Shown one piece after another: positions 1,604 through 35,700 of a DNA stretch of 64,000 bases. The position numbers and the translations under genes are program-made. Numbering within the stretch: the first letter of the stretch is position 1; the number at the start of each line of letters is the position of its first letter. The stretch is from assembly GCF_900048895.1 (NCBI RefSeq), contig NZ_LT160640.1, positions 310,001 to 374,000 on the forward strand. The letters are read 5' to 3'. The notes under the pieces were generated by a model that was not told the origin of the DNA, ran no database searches, and saw only the letters and a program-made list of their open reading frames with translations. Source of the DNA: Neglectibacter timonensis (GTDB taxonomy: Bacteria > Bacillota > Clostridia > Oscillospirales > Acutalibacteraceae).

Positions 1604-2383
1604 GTGAGGGAAACATGGAAGCTGGTCAGTTATAATCTGCGCTGCACCTGGGATAACGACGGGATCAACTCCTTTGTACACAGGGCCGGCCAGCTGCTGG
1701 ATAAGCTGGATGCGGAGCAGCCAGAGGTGGTATGCTTTCAGGAGGCGACGGAGCGGATTGTTCCGTTTTTAAAGAGGCATCTTCCGGATTATGAACTGCA
1801 TTTCCGCGGCCGTAACCGGGAGTTGGACGGAGAGGGACTGTGTACGGCTCTGAGGAAAGACTTCACAGAGCTGCTGGACACGGAGACCTTCTGGCTGTCT
1901 CCTACGCCGTATTTGCCGGGATCCCGTTTTGAACAGCAAAGCGAATTTCCGAGAGTCTGTCAAAGCCTGACGCTCCGCCTGCAAAATGGAAAACCCTTCC
2001 GGGTTTACAACACCCATTTGGACCATATTAACGACGAGGCCCGCATCTTGGGTATCCGTCAGGTCATGAATAAAGTGCTGGAGGACCGGGAAAGGTCGGA
2101 ATTGCCTGTATTTGTGCTGGGCGATTTCAACGCGCTGCCCGGAAGCGAAACGGTGAATTTCTGCGATACTTTTGGGGAGTTTCCCTTAAAGGACTTAACC
2201 CGGGAAACCGGCGGCACTTTTCATGATTTCGGACGCCAGGATCCGCCGGAAAAAATCGATTACATCTATACGGATGAAGCTACCGCCCGGAAACAGCATT
2301 CGGTCGTTCTTTGGAAGGATCAGCATGCTGGAATTTATTTGTCAGACCACTATCCGGTTTGTTTGGAATTGGAAACTCTATAA
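1604..2383 (+). CDS. Endonuclease/exonuclease/phosphatase (EEP) family hydrolase
   Basis: A 259-residue EEP-fold metal-dependent phosphohydrolase. Visible signature residues are Asn11 (SYNLRC), Glu47 (CFQEAT), Asn136/His138 (YNTHLDH), Asp174/Asn176 (LGDFNA) and the terminal SDHYP with His249. Together these form the family's metal and catalytic site. There is no signal peptide, so it should act in the cytosol, probably on a phosphodiester or phosphomonoester; the substrate is not predictable. The frame is open much further upstream, but the conserved fold begins just after GTG 1604, which has GAAGG (1591-1595) eight bases before it. The 172 bases between 1431 and 1604 hold nothing I recognise. 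Confidence 0.85.
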   Translation: MRETWKLVSYNLRCTWDNDGINSFVHRAGQLLDKLDAEQPEVVCFQEATERIVPFLKRHLPDYELHFRGRNRELDGEGLCTALRKDFTELLDTETFWLSPTPYLPGSRFEQQSEFPRVCQSLTLRLQNGKPFRVYNTHLDHINDEARILGIRQVMNKVLEDRERSELPVFVLGDFNALPGSETVNFCDTFGEFPLKDLTRETGGTFHDFGRQDPPEKIDYIYTDEATARKQHSVVLWKDQHAGIYLSDHYPVCLELETL

Positions 2384-2560
2384 GTTGAAATTGTTCTGAA
2401 CCGATAAGATAAGGAAAACAATCTTTTCAAAAATGGAGCATAATTGGTATTGTGCTTTTCTTAGCGGAAGGGAATCGCAAGGCTTAAACTTCTTTAAATC
2501 TTTAAAAGAGAAAAGCGTTTTGCACGATTTTAGGAACTTTCGGCATGAAAAAATTGTCAT

Positions 2561-2589
2561 TCATAAAGATAGTCCTTTCAGTCAAACTA
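2561..2589 (+). promoter_or_regulatory. Candidate sigma-G-type promoter of the spore protein gene
   Basis: TCATA (2561-2565), 17 bases, then CAAACTA (2583-2589). This differs by one base in each box from the forespore sigma-G pattern (GHATR and CATWHTA). It ends 48 bases before the SASP start. The location and the nature of the gene support it; the match alone is weak. Confidence 0.38.
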
Positions 2590-2637
2590 CTTAATGCAAA
2601 CGCAAAAAAAGAAAATCTTTTGAAGGAGAAAAAAACA

Positions 2638-2829
2638 ATGAGAAACAATTCTGTCATGGTTCCCGAAGCCAAAGAAGCTATGGAGCGTTTTAAGATGGAG
2701 TCTGCTTCCGAAGTGGGCGTTAACCTGAAGCAGGGCTACAACGGAGACCTCACCTCCCGTCAGGCTGGTTCTGTCGGCGGCCAGATGGTCAAGAAAATGA
2801 TCGAGAGCTATGAAAAGGGCATGAAGTAA
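2638..2829 (+). CDS. Alpha/beta-type small acid-soluble spore protein (SASP)
   Basis: A 63-residue DNA-binding spore protein that coats forespore DNA and is degraded at germination. The sequence follows the family closely: VPEAKEAMERFKMESASE, then GVNLKQGYNGDLTSRQAG and SVGGQMVKKMI. The ESASE stretch at about residues 21-25 corresponds to the GPR protease cleavage site. The start ATG 2638 has AAGGAG at 2623-2628; an upstream in-frame ATG (2545) would add a non-conserved extension. The gene stands alone, followed directly by a strong terminator. It is the clearest proof that the organism forms endospores. Confidence 0.97.
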   Translation: MRNNSVMVPEAKEAMERFKMESASEVGVNLKQGYNGDLTSRQAGSVGGQMVKKMIESYEKGMK

Positions 2830-2843
2830 AAAACTTCATCAGA

Positions 2844-2884
2844 GAAGCCCCGGCCGGTTATCCGGCCGGGGCTTCTTATTTTTG
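2844..2884. terminator. Strong bidirectional rho-independent terminator
   Basis: A perfect 14-bp stem GAAGCCCCGGCCGG / CCGGCCGGGGCTTC around a TTAT loop (2858-2861), followed by a T-rich tract on the plus strand. A run of A at 2828-2833 on the other side gives a T tract for minus-strand transcripts. It can end both the SASP gene and the convergent GDPD gene. Confidence 0.93.
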
Positions 2885-2943
2885 ACAGGTTATAAAGCCG
2901 CCACATTTTCTGTCTTGGGCAAATGTGCATGTAGGCTGGAAGG

Positions 2944-4836
2944 TCAATACTCGATCCATTCCTTCTGCCATCGGTAATAGTCGGAGGCTGTATCTCCCCA
3001 ATAATCTTGAACAGCCAGCTTCGCGACATCAGGATAATCTGAAATAAGGCCGGAGACATTCTCCTTCAAGTAGAGGTTCATATTATCATAGTCGTCCACT
3101 GTCCACACGTAGACAGGCAGGCCTGCATGCAGACAACGGTTGACGAGCCGGGGAGAAACCATATTCTCTTCGATGGTGAGAAAATCGACGCCGTTTTGTA
3201 ACAGGGAACTGGTATCCACATCTGTAATGCTGCCGTAGACGCAATATCCAATGGTAAATCCAGGGCGTAATTCCCGAAGAGCTTCTACCAGGTTGTAATC
3301 CAGGGACATAAACATGCAGAAACTTTCAGCGTCAGAGTCCTCTACAGCCTCGGCAACCTGCAGGGCGATGTCAACTGTTTCATGACCGTGTGTTTTCAAC
3401 TCAATCAGGAGATTGATTTTTCCTCTGCAGTAGGCAAGCATTTCCTGGAGAGTTGAAATTTGGCCCTTTCTGCCATTTTGTGAGAGGGTTAATTCTTTCA
3501 GTTCAGCAGCAGTCAGCTCATAAACATTTCGGGAATCACCTGTAAGGCGGGAGAGATTTGTATCATGAATCACCATGGGTATGCTGTCTTTTGAGAGAAG
3601 AATGTCAATTTCTGCATAGTCAGCTCCGGCATCGATGGCGCCCTGTACGGATTCCAGTGTGTTTTCTACCCCCTCTAAACTGCCCCGATGGCCGATGGCA
3701 ATGGGGGCATGGAGCACAGGAGGCGCAGCAAAGACCCCTGCAATAAACGAAATACCTAAAAAAACAGCAGCAGCAGTCAGCAGCTTCTTGTGCTTTTGGA
3801 AGAAGGGGCGTTTGCTGAAGGTTTTCCAAACACCCTTGAACCAGTTGGTCACCTTATGCCATACGCTGCCCACGGCGTGCCGGGTGCGGTCCAGCTTTTC
3901 TGAAATCGCCGGCAGAGCGCTGGTATTTAAGGTACATGAGCCGCCCAGCTGGTGGTAGAGTACGGTGAGCAGAGAAATCAGAAAAAGGGAAAGCACGATT
4001 CGCAACAGTTCAGAGAGCAGAAAAGCCGGAAGGGAGGAAAGCAGCTTGCCGTCAAGCAGATTAGTGATCAGCTCCGGCAAGCCAGCCCCGGTGATACCTA
4101 CGAAGCGGGACGGGATTACGCCCGGCCAGTGGAATAGAAAGCTCCATAGAAAAAAGTAAGCGGCACATAGACCTTTTGCCTTCCATCCGGACTTCTTCAG
4201 GTCTGACCAGCTGTGCCGGAATGCCCGGCTGAAGCGCTCGGCGCCAAGGCACATATGGGGAAGTGTGAAAAGCAGAAACAGAAAAAGAAAAACGGCAATT
4301 GTATAAAACACGGCGACAGCAGCCTGTCCCGGCACCGTCTTGGACAGTTCACCTGTAATGAAGTTAGGTATGCGGAGGGAAGGCAGCAGGGCGGAGGAAA
4401 GCCCCAGGTCCACTAACGGTAATAGTCCCAGTGCATAGATGGCGAAACCGGCAGAACTCCAACTTTTCAAGCTTCGCAGTGTGGGAACCGCCAATTTCAG
4501 GATGGTGGGCAGGGAAGGCCCTTGTTCGTTGTCTAAGGCGCAAGACGCTTTGAGAAAGAGAACCGAAAACTCGTAATAAATGGATAGCATAGCGAGTACA
4601 CCCAGCAGAATACCACCCAAAAGCCCCAGGGGAGAGGCAAAGGCTCCCACAATGCGTTCATTAAAAGCAAGTTCTATACCGCTGTTTCCCAATGTATAAT
4701 CAGCAAGCAGGGAAAAGACTGGTTGAAACACAAAGGCGGAGAGTAGCCGATAACAGATTTCAAAGAGAAGCAGAGCCGGCACCACTCTTTTCCATACGAG
4801 CAAAGTACGGCACAGAACAGACTTATTAACAGGCAT
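2944..4836 (-). CDS. Membrane-anchored glycerophosphodiester phosphodiesterase
   Basis: A 630-residue two-part protein. The first about 340 residues contain several long hydrophobic helices of the GDPD membrane-domain type. After a further helix near residue 365 comes a GDPD catalytic domain with GHRGS (His near residue 383), ENTLES, AEIDIL and VIHDTNLSRLTG, the expected metal and catalytic residues. The family cleaves glycerophosphodiesters to glycerol-3-phosphate and an alcohol; in Gram-positive bacteria the membrane version may act on lipid or lipoteichoic-acid products. ATG 4836 is chosen for its GGAGG six bases upstream; earlier in-frame ATGs lack one. It converges on the SASP gene and diverges from the SleB-like gene. 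Confidence 0.92.
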   Translation of the reverse strand: MPVNKSVLCRTLLVWKRVVPALLLFEICYRLLSAFVFQPVFSLLADYTLGNSGIELAFNERIVGAFASPLGLLGGILLGVLAMLSIYYEFSVLFLKASCALDNEQGPSLPTILKLAVPTLRSLKSWSSAGFAIYALGLLPLVDLGLSSALLPSLRIPNFITGELSKTVPGQAAVAVFYTIAVFLFLFLLFTLPHMCLGAERFSRAFRHSWSDLKKSGWKAKGLCAAYFFLWSFLFHWPGVIPSRFVGITGAGLPELITNLLDGKLLSSLPAFLLSELLRIVLSLFLISLLTVLYHQLGGSCTLNTSALPAISEKLDRTRHAVGSVWHKVTNWFKGVWKTFSKRPFFQKHKKLLTAAAVFLGISFIAGVFAAPPVLHAPIAIGHRGSLEGVENTLESVQGAIDAGADYAEIDILLSKDSIPMVIHDTNLSRLTGDSRNVYELTAAELKELTLSQNGRKGQISTLQEMLAYCRGKINLLIELKTHGHETVDIALQVAEAVEDSDAESFCMFMSLDYNLVEALRELRPGFTIGYCVYGSITDVDTSSLLQNGVDFLTIEENMVSPRLVNRCLHAGLPVYVWTVDDYDNMNLYLKENVSGLISDYPDVAKLAVQDYWGDTASDYYRWQKEWIEY

Positions 4837-28041: not shown

Positions 28042-28299
28042 GTTCCATAAGATTCTCCGTTTCCGGAAATCTTGTGAAGCCGAGCATGCGCTGAATCCAT
28101 CCGGTGCTCAGCACACGGGGCGGGTTTTGTGTTGGTTCCAGAAAAACCCGGAAAAATTCTGCCGTATTCAAAGGACCAAGGGTATTCCGGGTTTTTGGGC
28201 GCAGAGATGTCGGATTTCACCCTCACTACGGGGACTGACCCGTCTGGCACGATTTGTTCAGCGGTTGTCTGAAATACTATTTTGGAAGCAGGTGTTCTC

Positions 28300-29361
28300 T
28301 TGTATCGTCTAAACGATAAAATAAAGGATCTGAAGCCCTATGACCCCGTGGGGGAGCGGTACCGGATTCATCTGGATGCCAACGAGTCTTTTCTTCCAAT
28401 TCCTGCCGAGGTGCTGGAGGAGGTTAAGGCTGATTTGGACAAGCTGGAGTTTAACCGATATCCGGATCCTCTGGCAAAAGAGGCCTGCGAGGCTTTTTCC
28501 GGCTATTACGGGGTCCCCGTCAGAAATGTGGTGGCGGGTAATGGTTCAGATGAGCTGATTACCGTGATTTTCACAGCCTTTCTGCAGAAAGGCGATGCAT
28601 TTGCCACGCTTGAGCCGGATTTTTCCATGTATGCCTTCAACGGATTCCTTCAGGAAATGCGCCATGTTGTCATCGGAAAAAAAGAGGATTTTACGCTGGA
28701 TATTGACAGAGTGATCGAAACCTGCAACAATGAAGGAGTAAAGCTGCTGATTTTCAGCAATCCCTGCAACCCGACCTCTGTGGTGCAGAGCCGGGAGGAA
28801 ATGCGGAAGCTGATCCGCGGTGTGGACGCCCTGGTAATCCTGGATGAGGCCTATATGGATTTCGGCGCTGAAAGTCTGCTGAAAGAATTTATGGACTATG
28901 ACAACCTCATTCTCCTGCGTACTTGCTCCAAAGCTTTTGGCATGGCGGCGCTGCGCCTGGGTTTTGCCGTGGCGAACGATATGCTTGCCGGCGCGCTGCG
29001 GGCGGTAAAGTCGCCCTATAACGTCAATTCTGTCACCCAGAAGATTGGGGCAGCCGTGCTGCGCCGCAAAGAAGAACTGCAAAAAGCGCTGGCGGAAATT
29101 TTGAACTCCAGAAATTTTTTGTTGGAGCAGATAAAGCAGATTGGAGGGGAATTTCCCAATTGCTTTACCGTTTTTGGAGGCAGTACCAATTTTGTAACGC
29201 TGGTACTGGAAGAGCCGGAGAGGCTCTATCAGTATTTGGGAGAACAGGGGATTTCTGTCCGGTTCACTTCAGGGTTGATCCGTGTTACCTGCGGAACTGA
29301 GGAGGAAAACAGGGAATTCCTTCAGGTTCTGCTGAACTATCTGAAAGAAAAGGGGGAATAG
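28300..29361 (+). CDS. hisC: Histidinol-phosphate aminotransferase
   Basis: About 353 residues, PLP enzyme of fold type I. N-terminal LNDKIKDLKPYDP and LDANES are typical HisC. The PLP lysine is in RTCSKAFGMAALRLG; NPCNPTS and LDEAYMDF supply the ring contacts. The start is uncertain: TTG 28300 has AGCAGGTG close upstream and matches the usual N-terminus, while TTG 28282 is six codons earlier. The preceding 258-base spacer contains short inverted repeats, CGGGTTTT / AAAACCCG among them, but no gene. Confidence 0.94.
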   Translation: MYRLNDKIKDLKPYDPVGERYRIHLDANESFLPIPAEVLEEVKADLDKLEFNRYPDPLAKEACEAFSGYYGVPVRNVVAGNGSDELITVIFTAFLQKGDAFATLEPDFSMYAFNGFLQEMRHVVIGKKEDFTLDIDRVIETCNNEGVKLLIFSNPCNPTSVVQSREEMRKLIRGVDALVILDEAYMDFGAESLLKEFMDYDNLILLRTCSKAFGMAALRLGFAVANDMLAGALRAVKSPYNVNSVTQKIGAAVLRRKEELQKALAEILNSRNFLLEQIKQIGGEFPNCFTVFGGSTNFVTLVLEEPERLYQYLGEQGISVRFTSGLIRVTCGTEEENREFLQVLLNYLKEKGE

Positions 29362-29363
29362 GG

Positions 29364-29945
29364 ATGGAGCGCTACGCCGCGTTGAGCAGAAAAACCAAAG
29401 AGACAGAGGTTTCTCTGGAGTTTTCCTTCGATGGAGGCGAGATCGAAGTCTCCACGGGAGTCGGATTTTTTGATCATATGCTCACTGCCTTTGCAGTCCA
29501 CGGAGGCTTTGGCCTCAAACTGAAAACGGTAGGGGACTGGCATGTGGACTGCCACCATACGATTGAGGATACCGGCATCGTTCTGGGTAAGGCGTTTGCG
29601 GAGGCGCTGGGTTCCAAACGGGGTATCAACCGGTTTGGGCATGCTTACATCCCTATGGACGAAACATTGGGATTTGCGGCGGCTGATATCAGCGGGCGTC
29701 CGTTTCTGGTGTTCCAAGCTGAGTTTCCCCAGGAACGTACCGGTGATTTCGATTCCTGCATGACGGAGGAATTTTTCAGGGCCTTTGCTATGAACGCGGG
29801 AATTACTTTACATTTGCGCTGCGAGTATGGCAAAAATACGCACCATATGATTGAGTCTCTTTTTAAAGCGGCCGCCCATGCGCTGCGGAAGGCCGCCATA
29901 CTGAACAACGATGATGTCATACTTTCCTCCAAGGGAATGCTGTGA
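29364..29945 (+). CDS. hisB: Imidazoleglycerol-phosphate dehydratase
   Basis: 193 residues, the monofunctional dehydratase without the phosphatase domain found in enterobacteria. The two metal motifs are HHTIED near residue 67 and HHMIES near residue 161; FFDHML lies near residue 35. It starts two bases after the hisC stop and should be cotranscribed. The separate histidinol-phosphatase it requires could be supplied by a PHP-type enzyme elsewhere; the PHP gene at 53191 is in another context and is not an obvious HisJ. Confidence 0.96.
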   Translation: MERYAALSRKTKETEVSLEFSFDGGEIEVSTGVGFFDHMLTAFAVHGGFGLKLKTVGDWHVDCHHTIEDTGIVLGKAFAEALGSKRGINRFGHAYIPMDETLGFAAADISGRPFLVFQAEFPQERTGDFDSCMTEEFFRAFAMNAGITLHLRCEYGKNTHHMIESLFKAAAHALRKAAILNNDDVILSSKGML

Positions 29946-29986
29946 GAACGCCTGTTTGAAAACATCAGGAGAAAGGCTGAAATTCT

Positions 29987-31063
29987 ATGATCATTTTGCC
30001 TGCCATTGACCTACAAAACGGAAAGTGCGTCCGACTTTTTCAAGGAGATTATGCCACGGCCAAGGTGGTGGCGGAAAGCCCGGTGGAGACGGCAAAGCAG
30101 TTTGAAAGCCAAGGCGCATGTTGGATGCATATGGTGGATTTGGATGGCGCCAAAGACGGAAAGCCCAGAAATTCTGAAGCAATTTTCCAGGTGCTGGACA
30201 ATGTGGATCTGCATATAGAGGTTGGCGGCGGAATTCGCGACATGGAGACCGTAGAGCATTATCTGAGCAGGGGCGTCAGCCGGGTGATTCTGGGTTCAGC
30301 AGCTTTACGGGATCCCGCTTTTGTGAGAGAAGCCGTCAAGAAATACGGAAAAAAGATAGCTGTGGGCATTGACGCCCTGGACGGAAAGGTGGCTGCCGAC
30401 GGCTGGACTGAGCAGAGCCAGGTGGATTATATCGAGCTGGCGAAGCGAATGGAGGAGATCGGCGTCCATTATATTATCTGTACGGATATCTATAAGGACG
30501 GCACTATGAATGGTCCCAACCTGGTGATGCTGGATAAGCTGAACCGCTCCGTCAGCTGCAATATTATTGCCAGCGGCGGCGTGAGCAGCCTTTTGGATAT
30601 TGTAAACCTGTATGATTTGGGCCTGTATGGGGCCATTGCGGGCAAGTCCATCTACCAGGGAGCGTTGGATCTGCGTGCGGCAATCATTGCCTGCCAAAAA
30701 ATATCCAGTAAGGCATCGAAAAACAGGACGGCAGTGGACGATGAACTGGAGCGGTATTTCAGAAAATCCGACCTGATTCCCGCCATCATTCAGGAGGAAA
30801 GCACTGGGGAAGTGCTGATGCTGGCCTATATGAACCGGGAGTCCCTGGTGAAATCCATGCAGACCGGGTACACCTGGTTTTACAGCCGCAGCAGGAATAC
30901 CTTATGGAACAAAGGGGAGACCTCTGGAAATACGCAGAAGATCGTGAGCATTCATGCTGATTGTGATGACGATACCCTGTTGGTCAAGGTGCATCAGAAG
31001 GGTCCTGCATGCCATACGGGCAGCAGAAGCTGTTTCTTTAAAAAAATAATACATAACGGGTAA
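29987..31063 (+). CDS. Fused HisA-HisI: ProFAR isomerase and phosphoribosyl-AMP cyclohydrolase
   Basis: 358 residues with two enzymes in one chain. Residues 1 to about 238 are His[55 protein letters not shown] and IIASGGVSS. After a short Lys/Ser-rich linker, residues about 249-358 are His[20 protein letters not shown] near 307, the metal site [10 protein letters not shown] near 322 and [12 protein letters not shown] near 339. HisI and HisA catalyse consecutive steps, so the fusion could pass ProFAR directly. The frame is continuous, with no sign of error. hisH and hisF, usually adjacent to hisA, are absent from this operon. Confidence 0.95.
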
Positions 31064-31133
31064 ATTAATAAATCATCCTCTGCACAGACGGCGGATTGCC
31101 GCTGTTTAAGAGGGCTGGAAAGGAAAATCGACG

Positions 31134-31457
31134 ATGGATGTTTTGCAGGAACTGTATGAAACAGTGCTTTCCCGGAAAGAGGCTCAGGTAGAAGGCTCTT
31201 ATACCTGTTATTTGTTCGAAAAAGGTACGGATAAGATATTGAAAAAATGCGGGGAAGAGTGCAGCGAGGTCATTATTGCCGCTAAAAATAAGAAGAATCC
31301 GGAGACCGTTGGGGAGATCAGCGACCTGCTTTACCACTTGATGGTACTTATGGTCAATGAGGGGATTCCCTTTAATGAGGTTGAGGCGGAACTGGCCCGC
31401 CGCAGTGAAAAAACCGGAAATCTGAAACAATTTCACCAGGTGGACCGCGATTCATGA
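31134..31457 (+). CDS. hisE: Phosphoribosyl-ATP pyrophosphatase
   Basis: 107 residues, MazG-like all-alpha enzyme removing pyrophosphate from PR-ATP (step 2). SYTCYLFEKGTDKILKKCGE, EECSEVIIAAKN and EISDLLYHLMVLM are diagnostic and carry the Mg-binding acids. It is free-standing rather than fused to HisI, because HisI is fused to HisA here. Its stop overlaps the next start by four bases (ATGA). Confidence 0.95.
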   Translation: MDVLQELYETVLSRKEAQVEGSYTCYLFEKGTDKILKKCGEECSEVIIAAKNKKNPETVGEISDLLYHLMVLMVNEGIPFNEVEAELARRSEKTGNLKQFHQVDRDS

Positions 31458-33111: not shown

Positions 33112-33273
33112 ATGGCGGCAAATCCGGAGAGGGAAAATCCTGTTGCCGGTTATTCCGGCATTTTCCTGTCAGAAGAACAGGCCTCCATACTGTCTGGAGG
33201 CCAGGATATAGATAAGCTACTGGCCTCAATAACGCTTGGAAGTTTTCAGAAATACTACAGTAGTCTGTTCTAA
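33112..33273 (+). CDS. Possible 53-residue small protein, unrecognised
   Basis: ATG 33112 has an excellent ribosome site (AAGGGGG seven bases upstream) and the frame runs to TAA at 33271-33273. The product begins MAANPERENPVAGYSG and ends SFQKYYSSLF; I recognise no family, and there is no membrane helix or Cys motif. Against coding: the DNA contains hairpins (GGCCTCC / GGAGGCC, and GCCGG-TTATT-CCGGC) that suit a structured RNA, and third-base choice is not clearly biased. It lies just before the promoter of the sodium-pump operon. It may be real or only part of a leader. Confidence 0.3.
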   Translation: MAANPERENPVAGYSGIFLSEEQASILSGGQDIDKLLASITLGSFQKYYSSLF

Positions 33274-33283
33274 AAAGAACCAG

Positions 33284-33312
33284 TTGACATCACTTCCAAA
33301 AAGTGCTAGACT
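33284..33312 (+). promoter_or_regulatory. Sigma-A promoter of the OadB operon
   Basis: TTGACA (33284-33289), 17 bases, TAGACT (33307-33312). Transcription would start near 33319, immediately before the structured leader, which supports both calls. Confidence 0.7.
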
Positions 33313-33320
33313 TTATTTTG

Positions 33321-33406
33321 CTATGGGGGAGTAGTCGGCGTGGAATTCTGCGCAGCTAGATCAACAATCATGGGCGGTCACCCGCTCTGGTTTAGCTTGA
33401 AACGAC
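33321..33406 (+). promoter_or_regulatory. Riboswitch-like leader, yybP-ykoY (Mn2+)-like elements
   Basis: The leader begins at the predicted RNA start with GGGGGAGTAG (33325-33334), later has TCAACA (33361-33366) and ends ACGACCAGACC, running into a terminator. GGGGAGUAG, UCAACA and a terminal GACC are hallmarks of the yybP-ykoY manganese riboswitch. Helices that can form: GTCG/CGAC (33334-33337, 33403-33406), AGCTA/TAGCT (33354-33358, 33393-33397) and GGGCGG/CCGCTC (33372-33377, 33382-33387). TCTGGT (33386-33391) can pair with ACCAGA (33405-33410), which would block the terminator's 5' arm. A regulatory leader is well supported; the metal class is a guess. Confidence 0.62.
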
Positions 33407-33449
33407 CAGACCTGTGCCTATCTTTTCGAGGGCTCAGGTCTGTTTTTTT
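33407..33449 (+). terminator. Regulated terminator in the OadB leader
   Basis: Stem CAGACCTG / CAGGTCTG (33407-33414, 33435-33442), extended by three further pairs, followed directly by T7 (33443-33449). It lies 110 bases before the coding start, so it can only act as an attenuator. Its 5' arm is shared with an alternative helix. Confidence 0.88.
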
Positions 33450-33559
33450 ATCTCAAACGGAATTTTCCTGCAGGTTCCTGCGGGATCTGAGAAGGAGAAA
33501 CACTCTCATTTATTTTTGTTAATTGGGAAGACTATTCAAAAAAGGAAGGATGTAGAAAC

Positions 33560-34687
33560 ATGGAATTCTTGTGGGAAGGGCTGCTGTCGGTCACCTGGCA
33601 GCAGCTGGTGATGTACGCTGTGGGCGCAGTGCTCATCTGGCTTGCGATCAAAAAAGATTATGAGCCTGCGCTGCTGCTGCCGATGGGATTTGGAGCTATC
33701 CTGGTAAACCTGCCCTTGTCCGGTGTTCTGAATCAGACAATGCAGGGCGTGGGGGAAACGCATGGCATAATCCAGTGGCTCTTTGAGATTGGGATTGAGG
33801 CGTCGGAGGCATTCCCGCTGCTGCTGTTCATCGGCATCGGTGCGATGATTGACTTTGGCCCGCTGCTCTCCAACCCCAAGATGTTCCTTTTCGGTGCGGC
33901 GGCACAATTCGGTATTTTTCTCACAATTTTCCTGGCCGCTGTTTTGGGCTTTCCCATCCGAGATGCGGCGTCAATCGGCATTATCGGCGCCGCGGACGGC
34001 CCCACCTCCATTCTGGTATCTCAAGTGCTGAAATCCAATTATGTGGGGCCGATTGCAGTAGCCGCCTACTCCTATATGGCGCTGGTGCCCATCATCCAGC
34101 CGGTTGCCATCAAGGCTGTCACTACCAAGAAGGAGCGGGCGATCCGTATGGAGTACCGTCCTGCTGCAGTGAGCAAAACCACCAGGATTTTGTTTCCCAT
34201 CCTGGTGACGGTGATCGCGGGCCTGGTGGCTCCCGCCTCCGTCTCTCTGGTGGGCTTCCTGATGTTTGGCAACCTGATCCGCGAGTGCGGTGTGTTGAAC
34301 AGGCTTTCTGAGACCGCCCAGAACGATTTGGCCAATTTGGTCACATTGCTGCTGGGGATTACCATCTCTTTCTCCATGCGTGCGGATAAATTTGTCACAC
34401 TGCAGACCCTGATGATTATGGCCTTGGGCCTGTTTGCCTTTGTGTTTGATACCATAGGCGGCGTGTTCTTTGCAAAGCTTCTCAACCTGTTTTCAAAGAA
34501 CAAGATCAATCCCATGGTGGGAGCTGCCGGAATCTCTGCATTCCCCATGTCGGCGCGTGTTGTGGAAAAAATGGGAATTGCGGAGAATAACCAGAATCAC
34601 CTGCTGATGCATGCCGTAGGAGCCAATGTTTCCGGACAGATCGCTTCTGCCGTGGCCGGTGGAATTGTGCTGGGATTTTTCCTGTAA
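33560..34687 (+). CDS. Sodium-translocating decarboxylase beta subunit (OadB/GcdB type)
   Basis: 375 residues, nine or more membrane helices. The Na+-channel subunit that couples decarboxylation of a biotin-bound carboxylate to Na+ export. Conserved polar membrane motifs are visible: FIGIGAMIDFGPLL, IIGAADGPTSI (the buried Asp near residue 150) and VGAAGISAFPMSARV with VGANVSGQIASA near the end. No alpha (carboxyltransferase) or biotin-carrier gene is adjacent. The only partner is the tiny OadG-related gene 101 bases downstream. The leader carries a riboswitch-like attenuator, so expression probably answers to an ion. Confidence 0.93.
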   Translation: MEFLWEGLLSVTWQQLVMYAVGAVLIWLAIKKDYEPALLLPMGFGAILVNLPLSGVLNQTMQGVGETHGIIQWLFEIGIEASEAFPLLLFIGIGAMIDFGPLLSNPKMFLFGAAAQFGIFLTIFLAAVLGFPIRDAASIGIIGAADGPTSILVSQVLKSNYVGPIAVAAYSYMALVPIIQPVAIKAVTTKKERAIRMEYRPAAVSKTTRILFPILVTVIAGLVAPASVSLVGFLMFGNLIRECGVLNRLSETAQNDLANLVTLLLGITISFSMRADKFVTLQTLMIMALGLFAFVFDTIGGVFFAKLLNLFSKNKINPMVGAAGISAFPMSARVVEKMGIAENNQNHLLMHAVGANVSGQIASAVAGGIVLGFFL

Positions 34688-34788: not shown

Positions 34789-34926
34789 ATGAGTCCTGAA
34801 ACCGTGCAGAATATAATGGAAGCTCTGGGAATCATGGGTAAGGGTATGTTGGGTATTTTTGTTGTGATCGGCGTGATTGCCCTGATAGTCTATGCCCTTA
34901 CAAAGCTGAGCTCCAGTAAAAATTGA
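34789..34926 (+). CDS. OadG-related small membrane subunit (45 residues)
   Basis: A very short gene: ATG 34789, preceded by GGGAAAGGAAGAG, to TGA at 34924-34926. The product is MSPETVQNIMEALGIMGKG, then one membrane helix (MLGIFVVIGVIALIVYAL) and a short TKLSSSKN tail. Position, a single helix and the GMLGIF start of the helix resemble the gamma subunit of Na+-pumping decarboxylases, which assembles and stabilises the beta subunit. OadG is usually 80 or more residues with a metal-binding tail; that tail is missing here. It is cotranscribed with the OadB gene. Confidence 0.8.
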   Translation: MSPETVQNIMEALGIMGKGMLGIFVVIGVIALIVYALTKLSSSKN

Positions 34927-35058: not shown

Positions 35059-35700
35059 CTAAAAGAGCTTCAGAAAGGCCATACCCAAAAGCAGCGCTCC
35101 ACTGAGCCAGGAGATGTTGAAGGGCAGCTTTTTAGCCAGACGATTCCCCAATTTGCTGCCCAGCAGTACCGCCAGGGTTTCAGTGATCAGGGAACAGAGG
35201 AATACTGCCAGGATGTTTAAGTTTCCCAACGCCGCGCCGAACCCTACGGCCATACCGTCCAGGGAAAGTGCGACGGCCAGAGAGGCGGCTTCTCCCGGCG
35301 AAATTGTTTTAGAATGGTCACGGTCTGCTTTCTCAGGATCCGCATAAAGGCTCAGCACAAAACGAAAGTTTAGCAGGCTGAAATGGATTTGCTTTTCCAG
35401 ATTGTTGTGCTTTCGAATGATTGATTTGGTCAGGCTGTCGAGTAGTTTGACAAGCCCCAGAATAAAAAGCAGCACGAAACAGATGGCGGTGGTGAGGCTT
35501 TGTGGAATCAGTCCGCGTATCAGGGAACCGGCCAACATGGAGACCCCCACTACGCTGCTGCAGATCACATTGATGATTTGGGCGGACAGGAGAGGGATAC
35601 GGATTTTATTGCTGCCGTAGGCAAAGCTTGCCACAAATGCATCCATGGAGAGGGCCGCCGCCAGAACGGCCGCCTCCAGCAGGGAAAAAAGAAAATTCAC
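35059..35700 (-). CDS. ytaF: Sporulation membrane protein YtaF (MntP/DUF204 family)
   Basis: 213 residues, six helices, a duplicated MntP-type fold. The repeats are AAALSMDAFVASFAYG near the N-terminus and AVALSLDGMAVGFGAAL in the second half, each with the Asp of the transport site. The loop YADPEKADRDHSKTISPGEA is the D-P-x-x-A-D-x-D-x-S pattern I associate with YtaF rather than with MntP manganese exporters. Start GTG 35700 with GAGGG seven bases upstream. A CATAnnnTA-type promoter is present. MntP-like Mn2+ export is the alternative reading. Confidence 0.82.
   Translation of the reverse strand: MNFLFSLLEAAVLAAALSMDAFVASFAYGSNKIRIPLLSAQIINVICSSVVGVSMLAGSLIRGLIPQSLTTAICFVLLFILGLVKLLDSLTKSIIRKHNNLEKQIHFSLLNFRFVLSLYADPEKADRDHSKTISPGEAASLAVALSLDGMAVGFGAALGNLNILAVFLCSLITETLAVLLGSKLGNRLAKKLPFNISWLSGALLLGMAFLKLF

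Follow-up and report, generated by a model that had tools for sequence, protein, structure and literature searches.

In all likelihood, the RNA leader of an orphan oadB gene in Neglectibacter timonensis is a Mn2+-sensing riboswitch of the yybP-ykoY class that lacks hairpin P4 and acts as a transcriptional ON switch, a reading in which we infer both the ligand and the direction of control. The RNA class is already known; the unusual and recurrent part is the oadB target. The leader spans positions 33319-33449 of the window (the whole stretch of DNA that was analysed, 64,000 nucleotides), and its presence before oadB is real and goes beyond chance. Under the proposed mechanism, when Mn2+ is absent the segment 33407-33414 would join a terminator and transcription would end before oadB. 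Binding of Mn2+ (and Mg2+) between L1 and L3 would hold helix P1.1 (33323-33327/33411-33415) closed, and the closed helix would take up part of the 5′ arm of the terminator, allowing oadB and a small downstream open reading frame to be transcribed. The orphan OadB might then be of help under manganese stress, acting as a transporter by itself or within a Na+ pump that shares subunits encoded elsewhere. In Lactococcus lactis, Mn2+ stabilises P1.1, whose 3′ strand otherwise enters the terminator (PMC11087558). Because the 3′ strand of P1.1 overlaps the terminator arm here as it does there, the same ON switch would be the natural reading by analogy.

The promoter that drives the leader is of the sigma-70 type (TTGACA-N17-TAGACT, 33284-33312, forward strand), with TTGACA at 33284-33289 and TAGACT at 33307-33312. 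All 25 oadB leaders of our alignment A1 carry such a promoter with a spacer of 17-18 bases, and the distance from the -10 element to the aptamer, as measured by our script, is 13-16 bases among them. The intrinsic terminator (33407-33449, forward strand) pairs 33407-33414 with 33435-33442 and closes with T7 at 33443-33449, its 5′ arm overlapping the 3′ strand of P1.1 at 33411-33415. It folds at -21.1 kcal/mol (shuffle z -4.9), the leader as a whole has a z of -3.0 against shuffles, and a simple terminator test is passed by 23 of the 25 oadB leaders (L017 and L024 fail). The initial annotation had listed the promoter, the motif TCAACA (33361-33366) 27 bases after GGGGGAGTAG (33325-33334), ACGACCAGACC merging into the terminator with its T7, and a gap of 110 bases from the terminator to the OadB ATG at 33560, and every letter named there is present. 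It had also set the RNA start directly at GGGGG; since the -10 element ends 12 bases upstream of GGGGG, transcription probably begins about 5 bases upstream of it, near 33319-33321.

The aptamer (33319-33417, forward strand) is identified as a Mn2+ riboswitch of the yybP-ykoY type without P4 by the Rfam model RF00080, by covariation, and by R1, a covariance model built solely from oadB leaders, of which it occupies positions 1-99. Reading along the forward strand, the 5′ strand of the switch helix P1.1 (33323-33327) pairs with 33411-33415 and is followed at 33328-33337 by the 5′ side of L1 (GGAGUA) and the 5′ strand of P1.2 (GUCG, pairing with CGAC at 33403-33406). Hairpin P2 lies at 33338-33353, and the segment 33354-33397, defined by covariation and the RF00080 alignment, contains P3 (33354-33363/33388-33397), the metal loop L3 ACAAUCAU (33364-33371) and hairpin P3.1 (33372-33387). 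L1 itself, GGGGAGUAG with a GA-CC 3′ segment (33326-33334 and 33409-33412), is invariant in its columns across the 25 oadB leaders. P4 and the four-way junction are absent, with just five unpaired bases (UGAAA, 33398-33402) between P3 and P1.2. Because the E. coli mntP aptamer also lacks P4 in its alignment to R1, we judge that the absence of P4 is not defining for the yybP-ykoY class.

Covariation in the leaders of oadB relatives, proposed in the initial annotation as a check, is indeed found in the aptamer helices. In alignment A1, from which the mntP leader L026 was deliberately excluded, 95.5% of the pair cells of P1.1, P1.2, P2, P3 and P3.1 hold and 12 of 27 pairs are changed on both sides; the two-sided changed cells number 50 as against 16.2 in shuffles, a value that none of 500 shuffles reaches, and versions of the structure slid along the alignment are at most 44.7% paired. 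In P1.2, 99% of cells are paired and two pairs differ on both sides; P2 is likewise 99% paired, with three of its four counted pairs changed on both strands. RNAalifold, run unaided on A1, returned the same P1.2, P2 and P3 and three pairs of P3.1, but shifted the register of the outer helix. A second set, 29 R1 matches near 80 OadB loci (26 of them directly before oadB), also shows covariation in the helices, in an alignment that was fitted to the model and hence leans towards it. The helix TCTGGT/ACCAGA, put forward earlier as the alternative to the terminator stem, is complementary in the window, yet only 77.3% of its cells are paired in relatives and no pair is changed on both sides, so that this lack of covariation rules it out as the switching pair.

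To which genes are RNAs of this kind attached? R1, whose E-values are rough owing to a short calibration, scores the window leader, a member of its own training set, at 101.7 bits. Its matches came from 93 genomes of the family (398 searched) and 91 of the order (295 searched); the two sets overlap, and the filters were strict enough to lose weak matches. Of 203 distinct places, 197 were analysed (those left out were G045, G554, G511, G687 and the second sites of G581 and G678), and R1 rematched every one. When the first recognised downstream gene on the same strand was identified by tblastn with reference proteins, it was a P-type cation ATPase at 81 of the 197 sites, MntP at 64, OadB at 19, a Na+/Ca2+ exchanger at 19, a TetR-type regulator at 8 and GDT1 at 2, with none at 4. 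An independent clustering of the downstream genes, its references named by Pfam, agrees with this tally. Thus a gene of cation exporter type (P-type ATPase, MntP, exchanger or GDT1) follows 166 of the 197 sites, which is the gene company of a manganese riboswitch; the window site itself precedes oadB, an unusual target as remarked earlier. In the window's own genome just two sites rise above noise, the oadB leader and an mntP leader (C14:1651917, 54.1 bits, E 1.5e-11; next match E 2.28), and R1 matches before mntP, too, in at least 9 of the 19 genomes with an analysed oadB site. On 14 kb of E. coli control DNA the best match was the mntP leader, which has been named a Mn-sensing riboswitch (PMC9603457), its score being modest at 14.5 bits (E 0.016) and GGGGAGUAG and GUCAACAUACU both aligning in register; the alx leader in the same control scored 6.7 bits, which is not separable from noise.

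Several first genes in this collection are unusual targets in their own right. A TetR-type regulator stands directly after the riboswitch at the eight sites L073, L074, L075, L080, L109, L119, L154 and L217, and another follows mntP in L126. Among L101, L150 and L222 the first genes are a PhoU_div/DUF47 gene, an ABC transporter ATPase and, as far as the eye can tell, a response regulator.

Across the whole window, no Rfam match reaches its gathering threshold. On the 401 bases 33200-33600, relaxed settings gave a full-length alignment to RF00080 (Mn2+ riboswitch) at 19.3 bits (E 0.0021; gathering score 45) and a match to RF02617 (SSRC10) at 25.9 bits (cut-off 56); the five families found up to E 10 include no riboswitch for Na+ or Li+, and RF03071 (Sodium) has no match in this segment even at E 10. 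Over the whole genome RF03071 finds nothing above its cut-off (best 17.1 bits, elsewhere), and RF00080 returns three weak places (14.3, 13.9 and 11.2 bits), with the window site absent from the list. RF00080 scores E. coli mntP at 41.6 bits, likewise below 45, and finds nothing up to E 0.1 at E. coli alx. Among 19 sample loci, mntP leaders included, three reach E 1 (the oadB leaders L061 and L100 and the mntP leader L065) and none the cut-off. RF00080 is therefore insensitive for these leaders, and regulation by Mn2+ is probably under-annotated in these bacteria. Of the models that the initial annotation had proposed to search with, then, the manganese model matches, below its cut-off, and the sodium model does not.

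At the metal site of this class, Mn2+ is bound at N7 of an invariable adenosine, A48 in Xanthomonas oryzae (ACA48UACU) and A41 in L. lactis (UCA41AUUC) (PMC6754395), and by alignment this Mn2+-selecting adenosine is kept in the window leader as A33366 (UCAACA). Aligned to the model, two sets of oadB sites that overlap (19 and 27 rows, the larger including L288, where another gene stands between switch and oadB) have an A at this position in 18 and 26 rows, respectively. Inspection of the two exceptions, L249 (UCAGUAC) and L315 (UCAUACC), suggests that they are misaligned. Two main types of L3 occur before oadB, an ACA type and a CG-UCA type that resembles L. lactis, and both are also found before exporter genes. 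A third form, UCG-CUAACAC or UCG-GUAUCAC, was seen in the oadB leaders L297, L299, L305 and L322, two of which are titled or classed as Christensenellaceae.

These observations bear on the possibility that the yybP-ykoY fold has here acquired a changed ligand, such as Na+, that would suit a sodium-pump gene. The target is a Na+-translocating subunit that keeps its Na+ residues (as assigned in PMC7274780), occasional links between Na+-I riboswitches and genes for oxaloacetate decarboxylase are known (PMC9337991), and L3 is one base longer than in the solved Mn2+ aptamers (8 bases as against 7 in the X. oryzae and L. lactis structures; PMC6754395). However, the Mn2+-selecting adenosine is retained, both main L3 types are shared with exporter leaders, R1 finds an mntP leader in the same genome, and the sodium model is without a match in the window or a match over cut-off in the genome, so we regard a changed ligand as very unlikely. 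A separate Na+-sensing class, which the initial annotation had also entertained, is rejected given the missing RF03071 match, the conserved adenosine and the position of most sister RNAs before cation exporter genes. We assign the leader instead to the Mn2+ class, in a form that scores below the Rfam cut-off, because of that adenosine, its kinship with leaders of exporter genes and the lack of a match to the Na+ model. The traits of a yybP-ykoY riboswitch with a terminator-type switch, as originally described, are thus supported by the RF00080 alignment, by covariation and by the exporter-gene company.

Helix P1.1 is weak in oadB leaders because it is rich in G-U pairs (U-G in 24 of 25 leaders at one pair and G-U in 13 of 25 at another), as might be expected of a constitutive or protein-controlled attenuator that descended from a Mn2+ riboswitch and lost its metal binding. 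In A1 alone a single P1.1 pair is changed on both sides, in one sequence. We adopted this register because a wider set supports it: over 100 sites, in an alignment that likewise was fitted to the model and leans towards it, four of the five pairs change on both sides, one of them being A-U in 49, G-C in 45 and G-U in 6. The minimum-energy fold of the whole leader and terminator lacks P1.1, as expected if the terminator wins without ligand. This fold and the shifted RNAalifold register in A1 nevertheless count against our main reading, as do the RF00080 score far under its cut-off, the 8-base L3 and the performance of R1 on E. coli alx and mntP. Against a loss of binding, several Clostridia families retain L1, L3 and the helices with much compensatory change, a sign that selection still acts on the folded aptamer, and such a relic is very unlikely indeed. 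That the leader is a chance hairpin and terminator with no switch at all, as the lack of an Rfam match at the gathering threshold might suggest, has a negligible probability in view of the conservation, covariation and gene association.

The association of the Mn2+ riboswitch with oadB recurs in relatives. A DNA similarity search covering the own genome and 59 relatives found the leader in 22 of these 60 genomes, namely the own one and 21 of its 28 genus-mates, so that every genome with a match belongs to this genus. Each time oadB lies downstream of the leader (tblastn identity to the window OadB is 88 to 95% in the other genomes; in L019 and L023 the stretch examined ends within oadB). A second match, L026, occurs in one genome and precedes what reads as mntP. 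The leader is also carried by OadB homologues from other genera that share 80 to 84% identity (L029, L030 and L033). Among 80 close OadB loci, 26 have an R1 match directly in front, 144 to 264 bases upstream on the same strand, a count that is a lower bound. Pseudoflavonifractor capillosus and Marasmitruncus massiliensis are named species with the riboswitch ahead of oadB. Inspection revealed leaders of the same kind, missed by R1, within 700 bases upstream of oadB at five loci, L278 ([Clostridium] symbiosum), L280, L298, L344 (Neobittarella massiliensis) and L346; the association is therefore wider than 26 of 80. Judged by record titles and taxonomy, the switch-oadB loci fall in the Oscillospiraceae, Lachnospiraceae, Christensenellaceae and Butyricicoccaceae. 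In L288, from the Lachnospiraceae, the riboswitch (68-163) is followed by a gene at 238-1863, by eye a Na+/phosphate cotransporter, and then by oadB at 1920-3032; 17 bases separate the two genes by ORF ends, as if they formed one operon.

The switch is scattered over an OadB tree of 94 rows, built with a quick method, in which 40 rows bear the switch label. At least 20 label changes are needed, 8 of them forced by well supported branches, as against 30.5 expected with shuffled labels; the tree does not distinguish gain of the switch from loss. Its labels are imperfect: L278, L280, L298, L344 and L346 are wrongly counted as lacking the switch, L316 is without upstream sequence, and in L288 a further gene intervenes before oadB.

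The target gene (33560-34687, forward strand) encodes a complete sodium-translocating decarboxylase subunit beta of 375 aa (PF03977, 515.5 bits; TIGR01109, 429.9 bits). It is an orphan by position, since the genome encodes biotin carrier, OadB and OadA together at another place, on C12. Searches with one biotin carrier and one OadA as queries found no relative of either beside any of 27 switch-linked oadB genes (the 26 direct cases and L288; flanks of up to 4 kb, several much shorter), and a biotin carrier near 11 of 53 other OadB loci. Downstream lies a small OadG-like ORF of 45 aa (34789-34926, forward strand) with a weak match to NF040909, OadG_rel_small (19.3 bits, cut-off 25), and similar small ORFs follow oadB in a number of relatives. 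In the Salmonella protein the Na+-binding residues were assigned as Asp203, Ser382 and Asn412 (PMC7274780), to which D146, S326 and N356 correspond here by spacing; Y172, N317, G321 and S363 match Salmonella Tyr229, Asn373, Gly377 and Ser419 (PMC7274780). Across 33 OadB rows linked to the switch and 12 others, all of these counterparts show little or no variation, and with the site kept in this way the window OadB looks able to move Na+. Under the criterion used, no position separates the 33 switch-linked rows from the 12 others.

Convergent to oadB is ytaF (35059-35700, reverse strand), a sporulation membrane protein gene recognised by TIGR02840 that also matches the MntP Pfam family. As a linked Mn2+ gene it was rejected: no ytaF relative was found in the flanks of the 80 OadB loci or in another 9 loci, which included 12 kb from a genus-mate, and we therefore treat it as a chance neighbour. 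Elsewhere in the window, the ORFs at 28282-31457 look like clustered genes for histidine biosynthesis, among them a HisA-HisI fusion of 358 aa.

The recurrent pairing suggests that OadB takes part in manganese balance. More tentatively, and in our view less likely than not, a large group of orphan Clostridia OadB proteins, freed from biotin carrier and carboxyltransferase, might serve manganese homeostasis under a riboswitch that turns them on with Mn2+. Such a protein might, for instance, export Mn2+ in exchange with or otherwise coupled to Na+, or be a Na+ pump induced to power Na+-coupled Mn2+ export. If true, a new role would fall to a known family of sodium pumps. With oadB, the manganese riboswitch regulon gains a member in several Clostridia families, and orphan OadB proteins gain a handle on their function. 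We found no report of the pairing among open-access titles and abstracts, although it may still be in print, and none in passages of PMC9337991 and PMC3766115.

Among known RNAs, Na+-I (the DUF1646 motif, RF03071) is a different RNA of 55 model positions with no match here, likewise occasionally linked to oxaloacetate decarboxylase genes (PMC9337991). SSRC10 (RF02617), which Rfam describes as a small RNA and not a riboswitch, outscores RF00080 on window positions 33323-33447 and also matches L116, L061, L087, L065 and L026, that is, several mntP leaders and one further oadB leader. Its scores, the window leader included, range from 25.9 to 40.3 bits, the highest being on an mntP leader and below 56, and SSRC10 may itself be a Mn2+ riboswitch leader. 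From the yybP-ykoY riboswitches (RF00080; E. coli mntP, L. lactis yoaB, X. oryzae) the window leader differs in its lack of P4, its L3 of 8 bases, its G-U-rich P1.1, its score below the cut-off and its oadB target, and it is without the four-way junction of the L. lactis and X. oryzae crystal structures (PMC6754395). With the same riboswitches it shares L1 GGGGAGUAG and its GA-CC 3′ side, helices P1.1, P1.2, P2, P3 and P3.1, and the asymmetric L3 with its Mn2+-selecting adenosine, and with L. lactis yoaB in particular it shares the overlap between P1.1 and the terminator.
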